From Planctomycetota bacterium (GTDB taxonomy: Bacteria > Planctomycetota > Phycisphaerae > UBA1845): 64,000 bases of DNA. The position numbers and the translations under genes are program-made. The stretch is taken from positions 1 through 64,000 of the forward strand of contig JAUWWQ010000010.1 in the NCBI GenBank assembly GCA_030616775.1, read 5' to 3'. Positions within the stretch are counted from its first letter, which is position 1, and each line of letters begins with the position of its first letter. This document shows positions 760 through 8,248 of this stretch, piece after piece. The notes beneath the pieces are model-generated. The model made no database searches, was not told the DNA's origin, and saw only the letters and a list, made by a program, of their open reading frames with translations.

Positions 760-1299
760 TCACCGGTTCGGTCGAAGCTGCCGTGTCCTCTCGATTCTGG
801 CCCCTTTTTCCAACCAAGCGATGGGCCGCTCGTCGGTCTTATCGGGATTGACCCAGACGATTCGCCTAATTCTGCGAACACTGTTTGCCGCCTTGCGGAA
901 AGCCCGGAGCGCAGTGTCATCGAGTGCTGCGATAGCATAATCCGTTGCCACTGCGGCCTCGATTAATAACGTGTCCTTCGACAGGGTGTCCCGTTCCTTA
1001 TGACTCGATGCGGCGTTCGATATTTTTGCTCGCAGTTCATCATCTACCACAGAACCTGGAGGCCGGCACACCTTCTTCCTGGCTTCCATCGATACACGCC
1101 ACGTGCGAGCGAATGAGGACATATGTCGTGTCCATTGATTCCAAATTTCTGGTGTCATAACAACCCGATGGCAGATTGTGCGGACCGCCTTAAGGAAGTC
1201 TCGGCAGTTCTTTGACGTGGGAAAGGTGGCGCCTTCCGCCCCGGCTGCTCGCACGACGGATGCGTCTATCACCAAGCGTCTGGATGTCCTCTTACCCAT
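760..1299 (-). CDS. PIN-like nuclease domain protein, partner of the upstream ATPase
   Basis: A 179-residue protein that looks like a PIN-fold nuclease. It opens with a hydrophobic strand ending in an acidic residue (VIDAS, Asp12), has an acidic residue after a second strand (Glu51 in TPEIW), and carries Asp109 and Asp127/128 around a helix and last strand (KDTLLIEAA, AALDD). This order and spacing suits the metal-binding carboxylates of PIN domains, which cut RNA in VapC-type toxins and related proteins. I chose the ATG at 1299 because it follows the stop codon of the ATPase gene by one base (TGATATG) and because a longer frame would run back through the ATPase coding sequence. The tight spacing implies one transcript and translational coupling. 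The family assignment rests on motif reading only. Confidence 0.62.
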   Translation of the reverse strand: MGKRTSRRLVIDASVVRAAGAEGATFPTSKNCRDFLKAVRTICHRVVMTPEIWNQWTRHMSSFARTWRVSMEARKKVCRPPGSVVDDELRAKISNAASSHKERDTLSKDTLLIEAAVATDYAIAALDDTALRAFRKAANSVRRIRRIVWVNPDKTDERPIAWLEKGARIERTRQLRPNR

Positions 1300-1300
1300 A

Positions 1301-2701
1301 TCAGCGAGCCCCCCGCCTCGCCTCGGCGGCATCCAGGTAATCACTCTCAGCGGCGATGACAACATCCGCGAAGTCCTCAGGCCACTCTCCAAAGGCACCA
1401 GCATCGTCCACATCTGCACTGAATACATCAGTAATCCCGTCTTGGGGACGTCGTTTGAACCAATGAAGCTTGATGATCTCCGGTGAAATGAACCCCTTGG
1501 CGACGAGCGTTTGAATCGCCAGTAGCATCGTCGTACTGTGGGTTTCTGCTACCACCCGAACACCGCGCTTGGCTGCATCAGCCAAGACCTTGGCCAATGC
1601 TACTTGCGCCCGTGGGTGCAAGTGGATTTCAGGCTGTTCCAGATACACGAGTTGTCCGCGTTTGGCTGTTAGAAGGGCCACAAGCACCGGCAAGACCTGC
1701 GAGACTCCGAATCCAATGTCTGCGATGTTCACAAGGTCTCTTGCTCCGCCTTTGGCCTTGGCAACCGTCCGCCCGACGCGCAGTTCAGCGTGTGCATCAT
1801 CGGTTTGCTTTGCTTCAATCCTCCAAGTTAGTCCGAGCAGTTTCAGAGCCTCCTCCAGCTCTTTGATACGCTTGTCTTTGGCATTCTGCCAATGGTTGAT
1901 TACACTTGCTACGTACTTCTCGAACGTTCCGTGAAATGTTTGCCCGATGCGCGTGGTGGTGTATGAGCGTTCTGGATTGCCCCGAAGGCCGGGAACGTGA
2001 ATTACGTCACATACGTGTCGTTCGTAAAGGCCGCTAGGAGAAAGGGTTAGTGGTAAGTACGCCCCGGGTTTCCCGCGACCCAAGTACAATCTAACGCCAA
2101 GGCGAAGGAAGCATCGCTCGCGAAAAGCCCCCCATTGAGCCTTTCTTTTGCCAGCCTTTGTGAAAGATACACGTAGCTTGTCGAGCCCTTTCGGGATCAC
2201 GGAGAAGATTTCTTTATGCGACATGCCTGGCCGGAGGGTTATCGATCCATCCGCTGGTTTGGCTGATTTGTACGTCATCTCGCGAAGTTCGAATGGCTTT
2301 CCCGTCGACTTTCTGAAGAAAAGACCGAGGTCGCCTTCCTCAGTGCGCAGGGTGATTGAAAAAGCGTTGCCCGCAGGTTGTCCAGACGTCCTTGACAAAA
2401 GCTGATGTGCATCTGTGAAACGCACGTTTGGGCCAAGCAAAAGCAACGCTCCGGGATCATACGTCGCCTCGAGCGTTTGTTTGAGCAACAGGAGGGGCTG
2501 CATCGCGCTCGATTTTCCCGAGCTATTTGCGCCCGCGAGAATCGTGAGAGGACGAATCTCGATGTTGCTCTCCTTGGCGAGGGACTTGTAGCCGCGAACC
2601 GAAATGCCAGTAATCCCTTCGGCAGAGTCCTTATTTTTCGCCGTGGACTTCGATCCACGCGAGTTCCTACCTTTCTTGCTGGGTTTTCTCGGCAAAGGCA
2701 T
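1301..2701 (-). CDS. AAA/ABC-type ATPase, DUF3696-like (COG4938-like)
   Basis: A 466-residue SMC/ABC-class ATPase. Walker A is GANSSGKSS at residues 57-65, an ABC-signature-like DIGFGVSQVLP lies at 328-338, Walker B is LVYLEQPE at 351-358 and a switch histidine sits in AETHS at 385-389. A WP motif near residue 440 followed by a short acidic tail resembles the C-terminus of the DUF3696 group. The first 30 residues are basic and probably disordered. A GAGGAG ribosome site precedes the ATG at 2701. ATPases of this class power several two-gene phage-defence systems (for example Septu and PARIS); here the partner is a PIN-like protein one base downstream. A defence role is inference. Confidence 0.8.
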   Translation of the reverse strand: MPLPRKPSKKGRNSRGSKSTAKNKDSAEGITGISVRGYKSLAKESNIEIRPLTILAGANSSGKSSAMQPLLLLKQTLEATYDPGALLLLGPNVRFTDAHQLLSRTSGQPAGNAFSITLRTEEGDLGLFFRKSTGKPFELREMTYKSAKPADGSITLRPGMSHKEIFSVIPKGLDKLRVSFTKAGKRKAQWGAFRERCFLRLGVRLYLGRGKPGAYLPLTLSPSGLYERHVCDVIHVPGLRGNPERSYTTTRIGQTFHGTFEKYVASVINHWQNAKDKRIKELEEALKLLGLTWRIEAKQTDDAHAELRVGRTVAKAKGGARDLVNIADIGFGVSQVLPVLVALLTAKRGQLVYLEQPEIHLHPRAQVALAKVLADAAKRGVRVVAETHSTTMLLAIQTLVAKGFISPEIIKLHWFKRRPQDGITDVFSADVDDAGAFGEWPEDFADVVIAAESDYLDAAEARRGAR

Positions 2702-2897
2702 TTTCGCTCCTCTCTTACACTGCGTGACTGGTTCAGACTACGGGTTTTGCGAAGCCCTGTACGACCCAAGCGTTCCGAATCATGGCACTCTTCGCAATCA
2801 CGAGACCGTTTATGCAACATGCGACGCCGCCCCTGGACGAGCCATAGCGTCAGCCGGTAGGGTGCGTCCCGGACGCACGTTCCACTTCTGCGGGCGC

Positions 2898-3280: not shown

Positions 3281-3340
3281 AAACGTCGAAACGTCAAAAC
3301 GTCGAAACGTCGAAACGTCGAAACATCGAAACGTCAAAAT
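3281..3340. repeat. Short tandem repeat, 9-base unit
   Basis: About six and a half copies of a 9-base unit AAACGTCGA, with a few substitutions (AAACGTCAA, AAACATCGA). It lies directly before the REP-like tandem array. Confidence 0.85.
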
Positions 3341-3342
3341 AG

Positions 3343-3796
3343 TGCGGGAAAGGGGGCAGGCACCTCGCGGGGGGGCGTTTCTCGGTGGCGTGACGGGCCA
3401 TGAGCTCGGAGCCGGTCCCCTTTCGGAATCGTTGTCGCGGAAGCATCAGGTTGAAAAAGGGTACAGGCCCCTCGCGGGGAGCGTTTCTCGGTGGCGTGAC
3501 GGGCCATGAGCTCGGAGCCAGTCCCCTTTCGGTTGAAAAAGGGTACAGGCACCTCGCGGGGGGTGTTTCTCGGTGGGGTGACGGGCCATGAGCTCGGAGC
3601 CGGTCCCCTTTCGGAATCGTTGTCGCGGAAGCATCAGGTGTTGGTTGAAAAAGGGTACAGGCACCTCGCCGGGGGCGTTTCTCGGTGGCGTGACGGGCCA
3701 TGAGCTCGGAGCCGTGAAAAAGGGTACAGGCACCTCGCGTGGGGGTGTTTCTCTGTGGCGTGACTGGCCATGAGCTCTGAGCCAGTCCCCTTTTTG
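3343..3796. repeat. Tandem array of five REP-like elements
   Basis: Five head-to-tail units of about 70-90 bases. Each begins with a form of GAAAAAGGGTACAGGCACCT, continues with GCGTTTCTCGGTGGCGTGAC and GGGCCATGAGCTCGGAGCC, and four of the five end with the near-complement AGTCCCCTTT(TT). Start and end of each unit pair, so each can fold into a long hairpin. Some units carry an extra TCGGAATCGTTGTCGCGGAAGC spacer. A related single copy lies near 23480, and a stub of a REP-associated transposase lies near 63053. Open frames across the array are repeat translations, not genes. Confidence 0.85.
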
Positions 3797-3914: not shown

Positions 3915-4670
3915 ATGGCTACAACCATGAAGCTCAGCGCCAGCCTTGAGGATTACTTGGAGACCATCTTCCACCTGGTTGCGGAGGAGCAGGTCGCCAG
4001 GGCCCGAGATATCGCCAAGCGCCTTAAGGTCGGCCAATCCTCGGTGACTGGAGCCTTGCATGCCCTGGCCGAGAAGGGACTCGTCAACTACGCACCTTAC
4101 GAAGTGATCACGCTTACCCCCAAGGGGGAGACGGCCGCTCGGGAAGTGGTCCGGCGGCATGAGGTTCTGCGTGATTTTCTGGTGAAGGTGTTGTTGGTTG
4201 ACGAACGCGCCGCAGACAAGGCTGCCTGTGAGATGGAACACGCCATCCCCCCCCCCATCCTCGAGAGGCTCATTGAGTTCGTCGAGTTCGTGGAGGTTTG
4301 TCCACGCGGTGGAGCCAAGTGGATCAAGGGCTTCAGGTACCACTGCGAGCACGGCAACCTCGACAATTGCGAGCGCTGTATCGCCTCGTGTCTGGACGAT
4401 GTCACAAAGAAAAAGTCCGAAGCTGGGAGGAAAGCTGTGATGACCGTCGCTCTAGCGGAACTGAGCCCGGGTCAGAAGGCCAAAGTCGAGCGTATCAAGG
4501 GACGGGGCGAAATCAATAAACGCCTCGTTGACATGGGCCTCACCCCGGGATCGGTCATCGAGATGGGTCGGATCGCTCCCCTTGGTGATCCGATTGAGAT
4601 CAAGGTCAGGGGATATCACCTTTCACTTAGAAAGGAAGAAGCGGAGAAGGTTACGGTCGAGTTGCTTTGA
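3915..4670 (+). CDS. DtxR/MntR-family metal-dependent regulator with C-terminal FeoA domain
   Basis: A 251-residue regulator of the iron/manganese-sensing DtxR family. Residues 1-75 form the winged helix, and the dimer and metal region follows with His82-Glu83 and Cys105/Glu108/His109, in the pattern of the DtxR metal ligands. Residues 178-251 form an SH3-like FeoA domain (LVDMGLTPG). Between them lies a cysteine set C129, C144, C152, C155 and C159 that the basic family does not need and that could bind Zn or an Fe-S cluster. AGGAGCGG precedes the start. It heads the feo operon and probably represses it when iron is sufficient. Confidence 0.9.
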   Translation: MATTMKLSASLEDYLETIFHLVAEEQVARARDIAKRLKVGQSSVTGALHALAEKGLVNYAPYEVITLTPKGETAAREVVRRHEVLRDFLVKVLLVDERAADKAACEMEHAIPPPILERLIEFVEFVEVCPRGGAKWIKGFRYHCEHGNLDNCERCIASCLDDVTKKKSEAGRKAVMTVALAELSPGQKAKVERIKGRGEINKRLVDMGLTPGSVIEMGRIAPLGDPIEIKVRGYHLSLRKEEAEKVTVELL

Positions 4671-4720
4671 ATCAGGAGACGGGGACGTCGCGCGATTGGG
4701 TTTGCGACAGGAGAGACGGG

Positions 4721-4942
4721 ATGGTACCGCTTTCGCTGATCGATAGAGGCCGCAAGGCTCGCCTTCACACGGTATGCGCAGGACGGAGGCTTACTGCACG
4801 CCTCGCTTCCATGGGGCTGGTGCCGGGCGTGGAGATGGAAGTCGTCAACAGCAGCGCGAAAGGCCCCTTCATCGTGTCGGTGAAGGGGACCCGCCTGATC
4901 CTAGGCCGGGGCATGGTGAGCAAGATCCTGGTCATACCGTAA
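4721..4942 (+). CDS. feoA: Ferrous iron transport protein A
   Basis: A 73-residue SH3-like FeoA protein with the family motif LASMGLVPGVEMEV and GRGMVSKILV. I start it at ATG 4721, after an AGGAGAG site 7 bases away; an in-frame TTG that overlaps the stop of the regulator gene lacks such a site. FeoA acts in the cytoplasm with FeoB during Fe(II) uptake. It sits 50 bases after the regulator gene and 40 before feoB. Confidence 0.9.
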   Translation: MVPLSLIDRGRKARLHTVCAGRRLTARLASMGLVPGVEMEVVNSSAKGPFIVSVKGTRLILGRGMVSKILVIP

Positions 4943-4982
4943 CAAACGGATACGGCGTGTTTTTTTGCAGCGGAAGTTCGTG

Positions 4983-7175
4983 ATGGCAAACATTATGCGT
5001 GTTGCCGAACACCAGAACCAGCGGAAAACAGCCACCCGGTCGCGGCATATCGACGTGGCCCTGGCCGGCAATCCGAACTCAGGAAAAACCACCATCTTCA
5101 ACAACCTGACGGGCGCGCGGCAGCACGTGGGGAATTACCCGGGCGTGACCGTCGAGAAGAAGACCGGAACCTGCGAGCACCACGGCATCAAGATGAGCGT
5201 CGTCGATCTGCCCGGCACGTACAGCCTGACAGCGCATTCCGGGGAAGAGATGGTGGCCAGGGACTACATCATCAACGAGCGGCCGGATGTCGTTGTGGTC
5301 ATCCTCGATGCGTCAAACCTTGAACGGAATCTCTATCTCGCCACCCAGTTGATGGAGATGAATGTGCGCCTCGTGTTGGCCCTCAACATGAGCGACGTTG
5401 CCGCGGCACGCGGAATCAAGTTCGACCTCGGACTTCTGTCTCAACTACTCGGGGCGCCCGTGGTTCCCACTGTGGGCCACAGAAACGAGGGGACTAGCGA
5501 ACTCCTCCACGCCATCGTATCCGCGGCCACGAACGAGCAGCCTGAGCATGTGTCGGTCAGCTACGGGAAGGAGCTTGAAGACGAAATCGGAAGGATCTCC
5601 GACCTGATCACGACCAGCGGTACGCCGTTGGGGCAATACCCACCGCGGTGGTTGGCCATCAAGTTGTTGGAGAGTGACCAGGATGTACGGAAGAAGGTGG
5701 GCTCGGAGGAGATCCTCGGCGCTGTCGAGCAGACTGCCGAGCGCCTGGAGAAGCTGTTCGGCCATCCTCTGGAGGTAATCATCGCGGGTCAACGGTATGG
5801 ATTCATCAGCGGTGCTTGCACGGAAGCGGTTCGTTCCACGGTAGAAGCTCGTCATACGGCCTCCGACCAGATCGATGCAGTGGTCACGAATCGAGTTGGG
5901 GGCCTGCCGATCTTCTTCGGATTGATGTACCTGGTCTTCCACCTTACGTTCACACTCGGCGATCCCCCCATGGGCTGGCTCGAGAGCCTGTTTGGCTGGC
6001 TCGGTAAGGTGATCGACTCCTGGTGGTCTCCGGGTTCAGAAAGCGCCCTCAGGTCACTTCTTATCGATGGCGTCATCGGCGGCGTTGGAGGAGTGATCGT
6101 TTTCCTGCCAAATATACTGCTGTTATTCGTGGCGATCACCATTCTGGAAGACTCGGGCTACATGGCCAGAGCCGCGTTCATCATGGACCGGTTCATGCAC
6201 AAGATTGGGTTGCACGGAAAGAGCTTCATACCGATGTTGATCGGCTTCGGATGCTCCGTCCCGGCGATCATGGCCACGCGCACCATCGAGAATCGAAAAG
6301 ACCGACTGACGACGATGCTAGTTGTGCCGCTCATGAGTTGCGGAGCTCGCCTTCCGATCTACGCACTGATCATCCCAGCTTTCTTCCCACACTCCTGGCA
6401 CGGACCGATGCTATGGACGATCTACGTCATCGGCATCATCCTGGCGGTGTGCAGTGCGAAGCTGCTGAAGTTGACCCTCCTCAAAGGTCAGGCACCCCCT
6501 TTCGTCATGGAGTTGCCGCCCTATCGCCTGCCCACGCTTAAGGGCACGCTGATTCACACCTGGGAGCGGGCTTGGCTATATCTTAGGAAGGCCGGCACCA
6601 TCATTCTGGGCATATCGATCATTCTTTGGGCGCTGACCAACTATCCCAAGAAGACGGACTTTGGCCGAGTGTATTCTGCCGAGATTGCGGCGGCCGAGTC
6701 TGCATACGAATCGGATCCCGAGACTCTGGCAGCGAAGATGGACGAGATCGAACAAGCGATGCAGGCGGAGGAGTTGGCTTACACGATGGCCGGTCGTATC
6801 GGTCACGCGATCGAACCTCTTCTCAGACCGATGGGTTTTGACTGGAAGATTGGAACGGCCCTCATCGGAGCTTTCGCCGCCAAGGAAGTGTTCGTTGCGC
6901 AGATGGGCATTGTCTACGCGGTGGGCGAGGCTGATGAGGAATCCGATCCACTACGTGAGCGCCTGCACGAGAGCTATACGCCGCTGCAGGCCTTCTGCAT
7001 CATGCTGTTTTGTCTCGTGAGCGCTCCGTGTATGGCCACCGTCGCCGTCACCAAACGGGAAAGCGGCTCATGGAAATGGGCCCTGTTTCAGTTGGGAGGA
7101 CTAACCACGCTGGCCTACGTGTTGACGACCGTAGTCTATCAAGTGGGTAGTGTGTTCACGGCCGGCGCCGGCTAG
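4983..7175 (+). CDS. feoB: Ferrous iron transport protein B (GTPase permease)
   Basis: A 730-residue inner-membrane Fe(II) transporter. The N-terminal G domain shows G1 GNPNSGKTT (residues 29-37), G3 DLPGTYSL and a G4 NMSD. A GDI-like helical region follows, then the Gate/nucleoside-recognition membrane core with the FeoB hallmarks GFGCSVPAIMATR and a later GAFAAKEVFVAQMG. I prefer ATG 4983 over the in-frame TTG at 4965 because of the GCGGAAG site. Length and domain order are normal. Confidence 0.96.
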   Translation: MANIMRVAEHQNQRKTATRSRHIDVALAGNPNSGKTTIFNNLTGARQHVGNYPGVTVEKKTGTCEHHGIKMSVVDLPGTYSLTAHSGEEMVARDYIINERPDVVVVILDASNLERNLYLATQLMEMNVRLVLALNMSDVAAARGIKFDLGLLSQLLGAPVVPTVGHRNEGTSELLHAIVSAATNEQPEHVSVSYGKELEDEIGRISDLITTSGTPLGQYPPRWLAIKLLESDQDVRKKVGSEEILGAVEQTAERLEKLFGHPLEVIIAGQRYGFISGACTEAVRSTVEARHTASDQIDAVVTNRVGGLPIFFGLMYLVFHLTFTLGDPPMGWLESLFGWLGKVIDSWWSPGSESALRSLLIDGVIGGVGGVIVFLPNILLLFVAITILEDSGYMARAAFIMDRFMHKIGLHGKSFIPMLIGFGCSVPAIMATRTIENRKDRLTTMLVVPLMSCGARLPIYALIIPAFFPHSWHGPMLWTIYVIGIILAVCSAKLLKLTLLKGQAPPFVMELPPYRLPTLKGTLIHTWERAWLYLRKAGTIILGISIILWALTNYPKKTDFGRVYSAEIAAAESAYESDPETLAAKMDEIEQAMQAEELAYTMAGRIGHAIEPLLRPMGFDWKIGTALIGAFAAKEVFVAQMGIVYAVGEADEESDPLRERLHESYTPLQAFCIMLFCLVSAPCMATVAVTKRESGSWKWALFQLGGLTTLAYVLTTVVYQVGSVFTAGAG

Positions 7176-7621: not shown

Positions 7622-8248
7622 GTGCTCAGCCGAACGATCGTCTACATCGACGGCTTCAATCTCTACTACGGGGCTGTCAAGGATAGTTCCTAGAAATGGC
7701 TCAACATCCAGCGGTTTTTCACCCTTCTCAGGCCCGCCGACGACCTCCGCAGGATCTACTACTTCACCGCTCTGATTGACGGCCCGCATCGACCCAGCCA
7801 GGTTAGCTATCTGAAAGCCCTCGAAACGCTTCCACTCGTCACGGTTTTCCTCGGCAAATTCAAAACCAAACAGGTGCGATGTCGAGTCAGGGCATGCGAG
7901 TACCAGGGAGACCGCATCTTCAACATGCCGGAGGAAAAGCGAACAGATGTCAATATCGCCGTGCAGATGCTCCAGGATGCCCACGAGGACAATTGTGACC
8001 AATTCGTCGTGGTCAGCGGTGACTCCGACCTGGTCCCGGCCGTAAACCGGGTGAAGAACATCTGCCCCAGAAAGAGAGTATTTGTCTACGTGCCTGCGCG
8101 TGATCCCAAGCGAGGTGCTGCTGTCGAACTCCGCTCCGCGGCCGACAAGGACAAAAGCCTTCCGCTGAACATCCTGAAGTTCGCTCAATTCCCACGGCGA
8201 ATTCCTGATGGCGCCGGCAACTTCATCGAGAGGCCAAGTACATGGTAG
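7622..8248 (+). pseudogene. NYN-domain (PIN-like) RNase gene interrupted by a stop codon
   Basis: The frame begins GTG at 7622 after GGAGGAG and encodes the start of a NYN domain (IVYIDGFNLYYGAVK, with the acidic residue of the active site). At 7691-7693 it meets TAG where relatives usually have a tyrosine codon (before KWLNIQ). The same frame then stays open to 8248 and carries the rest of the domain, including RTDVNIAVQML and VVSGDSDLVPAV with its conserved acidic residues. One base change, or one sequencing error, would account for the break. NYN proteins are predicted RNases. Confidence 0.75.

Follow-up and report, generated by a model that had tools for sequence, protein, structure and literature searches.

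A two-gene ATPase–PIN module with a hypervariable ATPase centre, a candidate accessory immune system

The locus and its two gene products

The stretch of 64,000 nucleotides analysed here (hereafter the window) belongs to a Planctomycetota genome and carries two adjoining genes at the start of its contig, namely an ATPase gene and, behind it on the same strand, a small gene. The features of the pair are as follows.

1301..2701, minus strand: ATPase gene, 466 aa, of the ABC/SMC-head type (AAA_21/AAA_15), based on the open reading frame, Pfam, an AF2 model and motifs
760..1299, minus strand: small gene, 179 aa, for a PIN-fold protein, based on the open reading frame, an AF2 model, PDB structure matches and acidic residues
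1982..2386, minus strand: ATPase codons 106–240, hypervariable central region and proposed recognition module, based on alignment to relatives
1297..1303, minus strand: TGATATG junction of the ATPase stop and the small-gene start, read from the sequence
2707..2711, minus strand: Shine–Dalgarno-like AGGAG before the ATPase ATG, read from the sequence

The ATPase reading frame is intact, with 5 nt between AGGAG and its ATG, and the small gene starts one base past the ATPase stop codon (TGA-T-ATG), so that the two-gene module described in an earlier sequence-only reading of this DNA is confirmed in position, strand and spacing. Judging from this junction, the two genes are likely to be translationally coupled. 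TGATATG/TGACATG or ATGA/GTGA-type overlaps are also found at the junctions of most relatives, where the two genes mostly overlap by 4 or 11 nt or lie 1–17 nt apart when start codons are assigned by rule. The repeat arrays said to lie beside the pair were located at 3281–3783, where an 8-bp tandem array (AAACGTCG) is accompanied by several copies of a GC-rich repeat of 70–112 bp. Further on are likely genes for a DtxR/MntR-type regulator, FeoA and FeoB (3915–7175, judged by eye) and an open reading frame at 7874–8248 with a resemblance, by eye, to NYN (PIN-like) domain proteins (VVSGDSDLVPAV). No defence genes were seen near the pair in the first 9 kb of the contig, and the first 12 kb of the window gave no Rfam match.

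The ATPase matches both AAA_21 and AAA_15 with scores above the Pfam cut-offs, and its AF2 model (pLDDT 84) matches the heads of SMC, Rad50 and PtuA with Z up to 21.7. Its sub-assignment to the OLD family is based on AAA_15/AAA_21 together with a weak match to PDB 6p74. DUF3696 (PF12476), suspected at the C-terminus, scored under the cut-off. The motif set, previously described as complete, comprises Walker A (GANSSGKS, G57–S64, with K63), a signature-like motif (GFGVSQ, 330–335), Walker B (LVYLEQPE) and the H-loop (H388), all kept across the subfamily (17 aligned relatives), but where Walker B would have its catalytic glutamate, the window has Gln356 and nearly all relatives have Gln (EQPE). 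In ABC ATPases, an E-to-Q exchange at this glutamate slows ATP hydrolysis and makes the dimer more stable in its ATP-bound form. By analogy, Gln356 might have the same two effects in the window ATPase.

At the sequence level the small protein has no significant match in Pfam, NCBIfam, PADLOC or PDB, with weak PIN-clan hints among matches at chance level. Structural comparison is more informative. An AF2 model built from 20 relatives (pLDDT 93, pTM 0.88) finds VapC21 as its best VIA-align match (Z 10.3 over 128 residues, 10% identity), and the top rows are PIN/VapC/NYN/HARP structures, including other VapCs, Nmd4, SMG6 and Nob1; matches obtained by Foldseek alone are weaker (best E 5.7e-3). On this model the small protein is a PIN-fold protein, as had been proposed. 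Among 35 sequences, D109 and D127 are found in 35/35 and D12 in 34/34 scored, which upholds three of the carboxylates pointed out earlier. The two others fare differently, D128 not being invariant and position 51, considered as the second acid, being acidic in 23/35 only; the conserved second acid is at position 55 (E in 32, Q in 3). All three Q55 members, the window included, have E51, and at least one of these two positions is acidic in every member, a suggestive pattern of compensation that is not significant (Fisher p 0.54). By sequence alignment the protein thus displays the four-acid PIN pattern (D, E/D, D, D), and it may act as a metal-dependent RNase effector. Purifying selection acts on both genes (dN/dS 0.06–0.47).

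Pairing, distribution and genomic neighbourhood

The association of the two genes was followed in 392 genomes of planctomycetes and 390 of cyanobacteria, where the subfamily ATPase and the small gene were found in the same 27 genomes. In the planctomycete set, a search with the small protein found six genomes besides its own, with the ATPase directly upstream in all six, and in a profile search the seven genomes with the subfamily ATPase (score >390 bits; next best 137) were the seven with a full small gene. One of these seven has an additional second small-gene match, which is weak (E 1.7e-4), and one further planctomycete genome has a C-terminal small-gene remnant with no ATPase beside it (L055, 1480–1821). 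In cyanobacteria, the ATPase occurs in 20/390 genomes and small-gene sequence adjoins it in 20/20, counting one ATPase split over two contigs, one small gene cut by a contig end and one deleted at its 5′ end; a 21st genome has a small-gene remnant alone. An independent scan of GTDB contigs found 15 of 15 copies paired, in Cyanobacteria, Myxococcota, Planctomycetota, Goldiibacteriota, Caldilineaceae and one Methanothrix MAG. In addition, ATPase and small-protein distances co-vary (Pearson 0.75, 0 of 5000 permutations). Since pairs of homologues keep this gene order in several phyla, under purifying selection, the pairing is far beyond chance; the linkage of small-gene homologues to the ATPase holds, save for the gene remnants and the one weak match.

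The distribution is patchy, with about 2% of the planctomycete and about 5% of the cyanobacterial genomes sampled having the pair, and it crosses phyla. No homologues were found in plasmids or viral contigs. The remnants indicate that the pair is dispensable, and either gene can be broken on its own: the PIN gene is disrupted next to an open ATPase frame in L090 (TGA) and L099 (5′ deletion), and the ATPase next to an open PIN gene in L015 (one MAG).

In Symplocastrum, Oscillatoria, Calothrix and Anabaena, the pair has a fixed place upstream of rpsB-tsf(-recG), and in other cyanobacterial groups it is found near trpS or leuS. In a set of 30 relatives of Oscillatoria PCC 10802, a glycosyltransferase gene is followed directly by rpsB in nine (empty site) and by the pair in three (filled), and longer loci of the same species place the pair between the glycosyltransferase gene and rpsB. 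In these relatives, the pair is therefore a clean insertion between the two genes. Many copies adjoin housekeeping genes of this kind (rpsB-tsf, trpS, leuS), not defence islands. Some copies do have defence genes beside them, namely type I RM HsdM and HsdS with a PDC-M28B-like gene directly upstream (L014), NsnA-like, HEPN and PtuA/AriA-like ATPase genes (L081), DarT and DarG of DarTG (L099) and a DUF262 protein (L087).

A separate observation concerns a 318-aa gene adjoining a PtuA/AriA-like ATPase gene in three cyanobacteria (L081, 5930–6883; L016, 3781–4734; L099, 7617–8573). Scanned in L081, it has no PADLOC or Pfam match, and with its ATPase neighbour it possibly makes up an unnamed two-gene system next to the ATPase–PIN pair.

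The hypervariable centre of the ATPase

Residues ~106–240 of the ATPase are hypervariable and diverge far more than the rest of the protein between close relatives. Typically, flanks and PIN gene are ~90–98% identical and the centre ~40–50%, with saturated synonymous change. Comparison of flanks with centre gives 95% versus 51% amino acid identity and dS of 0.15 versus 0.84 for L011/L012, 91% versus 39% and 0.34 versus 0.97 for L016/L081, 96% versus 40% and 0.26 versus 2.13 for L084/L088, 98% versus 39% and 0.39 versus 1.49 for L086/L089, and 85% versus 25% amino acid identity for L092/L096. For reference, background dS is 0.10 (rpsB) and 0.16 (recG) for L011/L012, 0.54 (trpS) for both L084/L088 and L086/L089, and 0.65 (leuS) for L016/L081. 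Fisher tests of synonymous sites in centre and flanks reach p values down to 9e-15, pairs from the same group not being independent of each other. The borders of the variable block are sharp at the DNA level. In L088/L089 the centre is instead the less diverged part (dS 0.12, against flanks at 0.33 and trpS at 0.65), which would follow from recent sharing of the block.

That synonymous sites, too, diverge more in the centre speaks for recombinational replacement and against rapid amino acid change as the sole cause, even if centre dS may be partly inflated by misalignment at 25–50% identity. The aligned sequences thus indicate that the ATPase centre undergoes block replacement by recombination in relatives, the pattern recurring in at least four independent groups of the window's clade. 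The window ATPase differs from its nearest relatives in the same direction (31–37% identity in the centre, ~67% in the flanks); no close relative of it was available, and the exchange is accordingly a feature seen in relatives and not in the window. The pattern extends to HEC-03, a candidate system of PADLOC, at the amino acid level, as L123/L128 are 97–100% identical in the first 60 residues and 10–30% in the centre. More broadly, among HEC-03B-type ATPases (L123, L124, L127, L128, L126 and L129), identity is mostly 70–100% in the flanks and 3–50% in the centre.

For the window's clade, no description of an exchangeable ATPase centre was found in the literature searched. The exchange can be likened to that of the target-recognition domains of type I restriction HsdS. 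It is an evenly balanced proposition that ATPase–PIN systems form a broad receptor class in which a central recognition cassette is exchanged by recombination between near-identical alleles, with the ATPase core and the PIN protein remaining fixed.

Known systems and the role of the pair

The sequence-only reading knew of no named system corresponding to the pair. This view has to be revised, since the combination of an ATPase with a PIN protein is of a known kind, represented by HEC-03 and by dyads of an OLD-ABC ATPase with a PIN endoRNase, described as a class from BREX islands (PMC12839542); what is apparently new is the clade of the window and its effector family. HEC-03 (HEC-03A + HEC-03B) resembles the pair in its overlapping genes, with the ATPase preceding a PIN-type protein, and its ATPase is related to that of the window (E 1.2e-36, to be compared with 1.6e-123 for a true member) and shares the variable centre. 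However, in the ATPase tree the window's clade is monophyletic and separate from the HEC-03B clade with a support of 100/100; the deep joins between clades are uncertain, the tool warning of long branches between deep groups. Furthermore, the HEC-03A model, which recovers its positive control (L125, 4e-75), does not match the window's small protein and is absent from the weak matches of 20 relatives, and profile comparisons linked the window's PIN family only weakly to HEC-03A and to a third PIN family, too weakly to establish common descent of the PIN partners. The BREX-island dyads likewise combine an OLD-type ABC ATPase with a PIN nuclease, there as a back-up effector, but no BREX gene was recognised near the window pair or the clade relatives examined (PMC12839542 for the dyads).

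Other systems share the ATPase side of the pair and differ in the partner. NsnB of Menshen (NsnA, NsnB, NsnC) is the best PADLOC match of the window ATPase (1.8e-54), but no third gene corresponding to NsnA (DUF262) or NsnC is directly attached to the pair in the window or in relatives, and the Menshen partner is a predicted OLD/TOPRIM nuclease (PMC10952713) instead of a PIN protein. PARIS (AriA + AriB) also joins an ABC ATPase to an adjoining small nuclease gene; its effector is of the TOPRIM/DUF4435 type, with no AriB match for the PIN-fold partner, and AriA is matched by the window ATPase less well than NsnB or HEC-03B. Septu PtuA–PtuB and the PtuAB of retrons Ec78/Ec83 have the same ATPase head class and an adjoining nuclease gene, but their partner is HNH and the window protein has no PtuB match; unlike in the retrons, no reverse transcriptase or retron RNA was seen at the pair.

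Within the ATPase superfamily, HEC-03A-type PIN genes lie downstream in other clades (L032 and the L122–L129 group), and yet another group resembles Menshen in having DUF262 upstream. Short genes behind more distant ATPases match Pfam PIN weakly (L040, L041, L046, L047) or are PIN-like by motif only (L036/L037, L039); none of them matches a PADLOC model, and these three sets possibly represent further ATPase–PIN families. In L032 (1–3750), a HEC-03-like ATPase–PIN pair adjoins a gene that looks, by eye, like a BREX P-loop ATPase.

The pair is probably a two-gene accessory immune module in which the ATPase would be a sensor holding a PIN RNase effector, for triggered abortive immunity in the manner of PARIS, the system whose mechanism is best understood and in which AriB stays bound by AriA until it is released by a phage protein (PMC11455837). 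In this scheme the ABC/OLD-like ATPase would sense, by means of its exchangeable centre (~residues 106–240), a phage product or a phage-caused state; the PIN RNase, produced in step with the ATPase, would be held inactive in a complex until the sensor is triggered, and would then cleave tRNA, rRNA or mRNA and thereby halt both growth and the production of phage. Complex formation, RNase activity, trigger and anti-phage outcome are all postulated here by reasoning from the genes and their relatives. The defence reading gains support from the patchiness of the pair, its clean insertion with an empty site, the exchangeable ATPase centre and the defence genes beside some copies. Points against it are the many housekeeping neighbours, the absence of copies from plasmids and viral contigs and the lack of a defence gene near the window pair. 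Antiviral activity has been reported for several HECs (PMC12988326, where HEC-06 is named and HEC-03 is not), and not all OLD-family ATPases defend, Cran1 acting in the cell cycle (PMC12796447).

The last example, together with the fixed position before rpsB-tsf(-recG) in several cyanobacteria and near trpS or leuS elsewhere, would suit a housekeeping enzyme pair in RNA processing or linked to the ribosome. This is the least probable of the roles considered, as only ~5% of cyanobacterial genomes have the pair, relatives carry the glycosyltransferase gene directly before rpsB, the remnants show that the pair is dispensable, and the ATPase centre is hypervariable. A stress-responsive toxin–antitoxin, in which the ATPase would be the antitoxin or regulator of a PIN toxin acting in starvation or in the maintenance of a plasmid or element, and not specifically against phages, is unlikely, even though the closest folds are VapBC-type PIN toxins, the two genes are tightly coupled and the PIN gene alone was lost in L090 and L099. 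The likeness to VapBC concerns the effector fold (VapC21, at an identity of only 10%); the partner is a 466-aa ATPase in place of a small DNA-binding antitoxin, and block exchange in its centre fits a recognition surface rather than a fixed antitoxin.

Finally, the same sensor–effector mechanics could be directed against plasmids or other mobile elements instead of phages. SMC/Rad50-type heads, found in the ATPase class of the pair, are also present in anti-plasmid systems (Wadjet, Lamassu). Nothing specific speaks against such a target, but the systems nearest in mechanism (PARIS, Septu, retron effectors) act against phages, and this variant is rated quite improbable. If the immune reading is true, ATPase–nuclease immune systems would gain a PIN effector family that is invisible to Pfam and PADLOC, and the blocks exchanged between ~95% identical alleles would offer a handle on what such systems sense.
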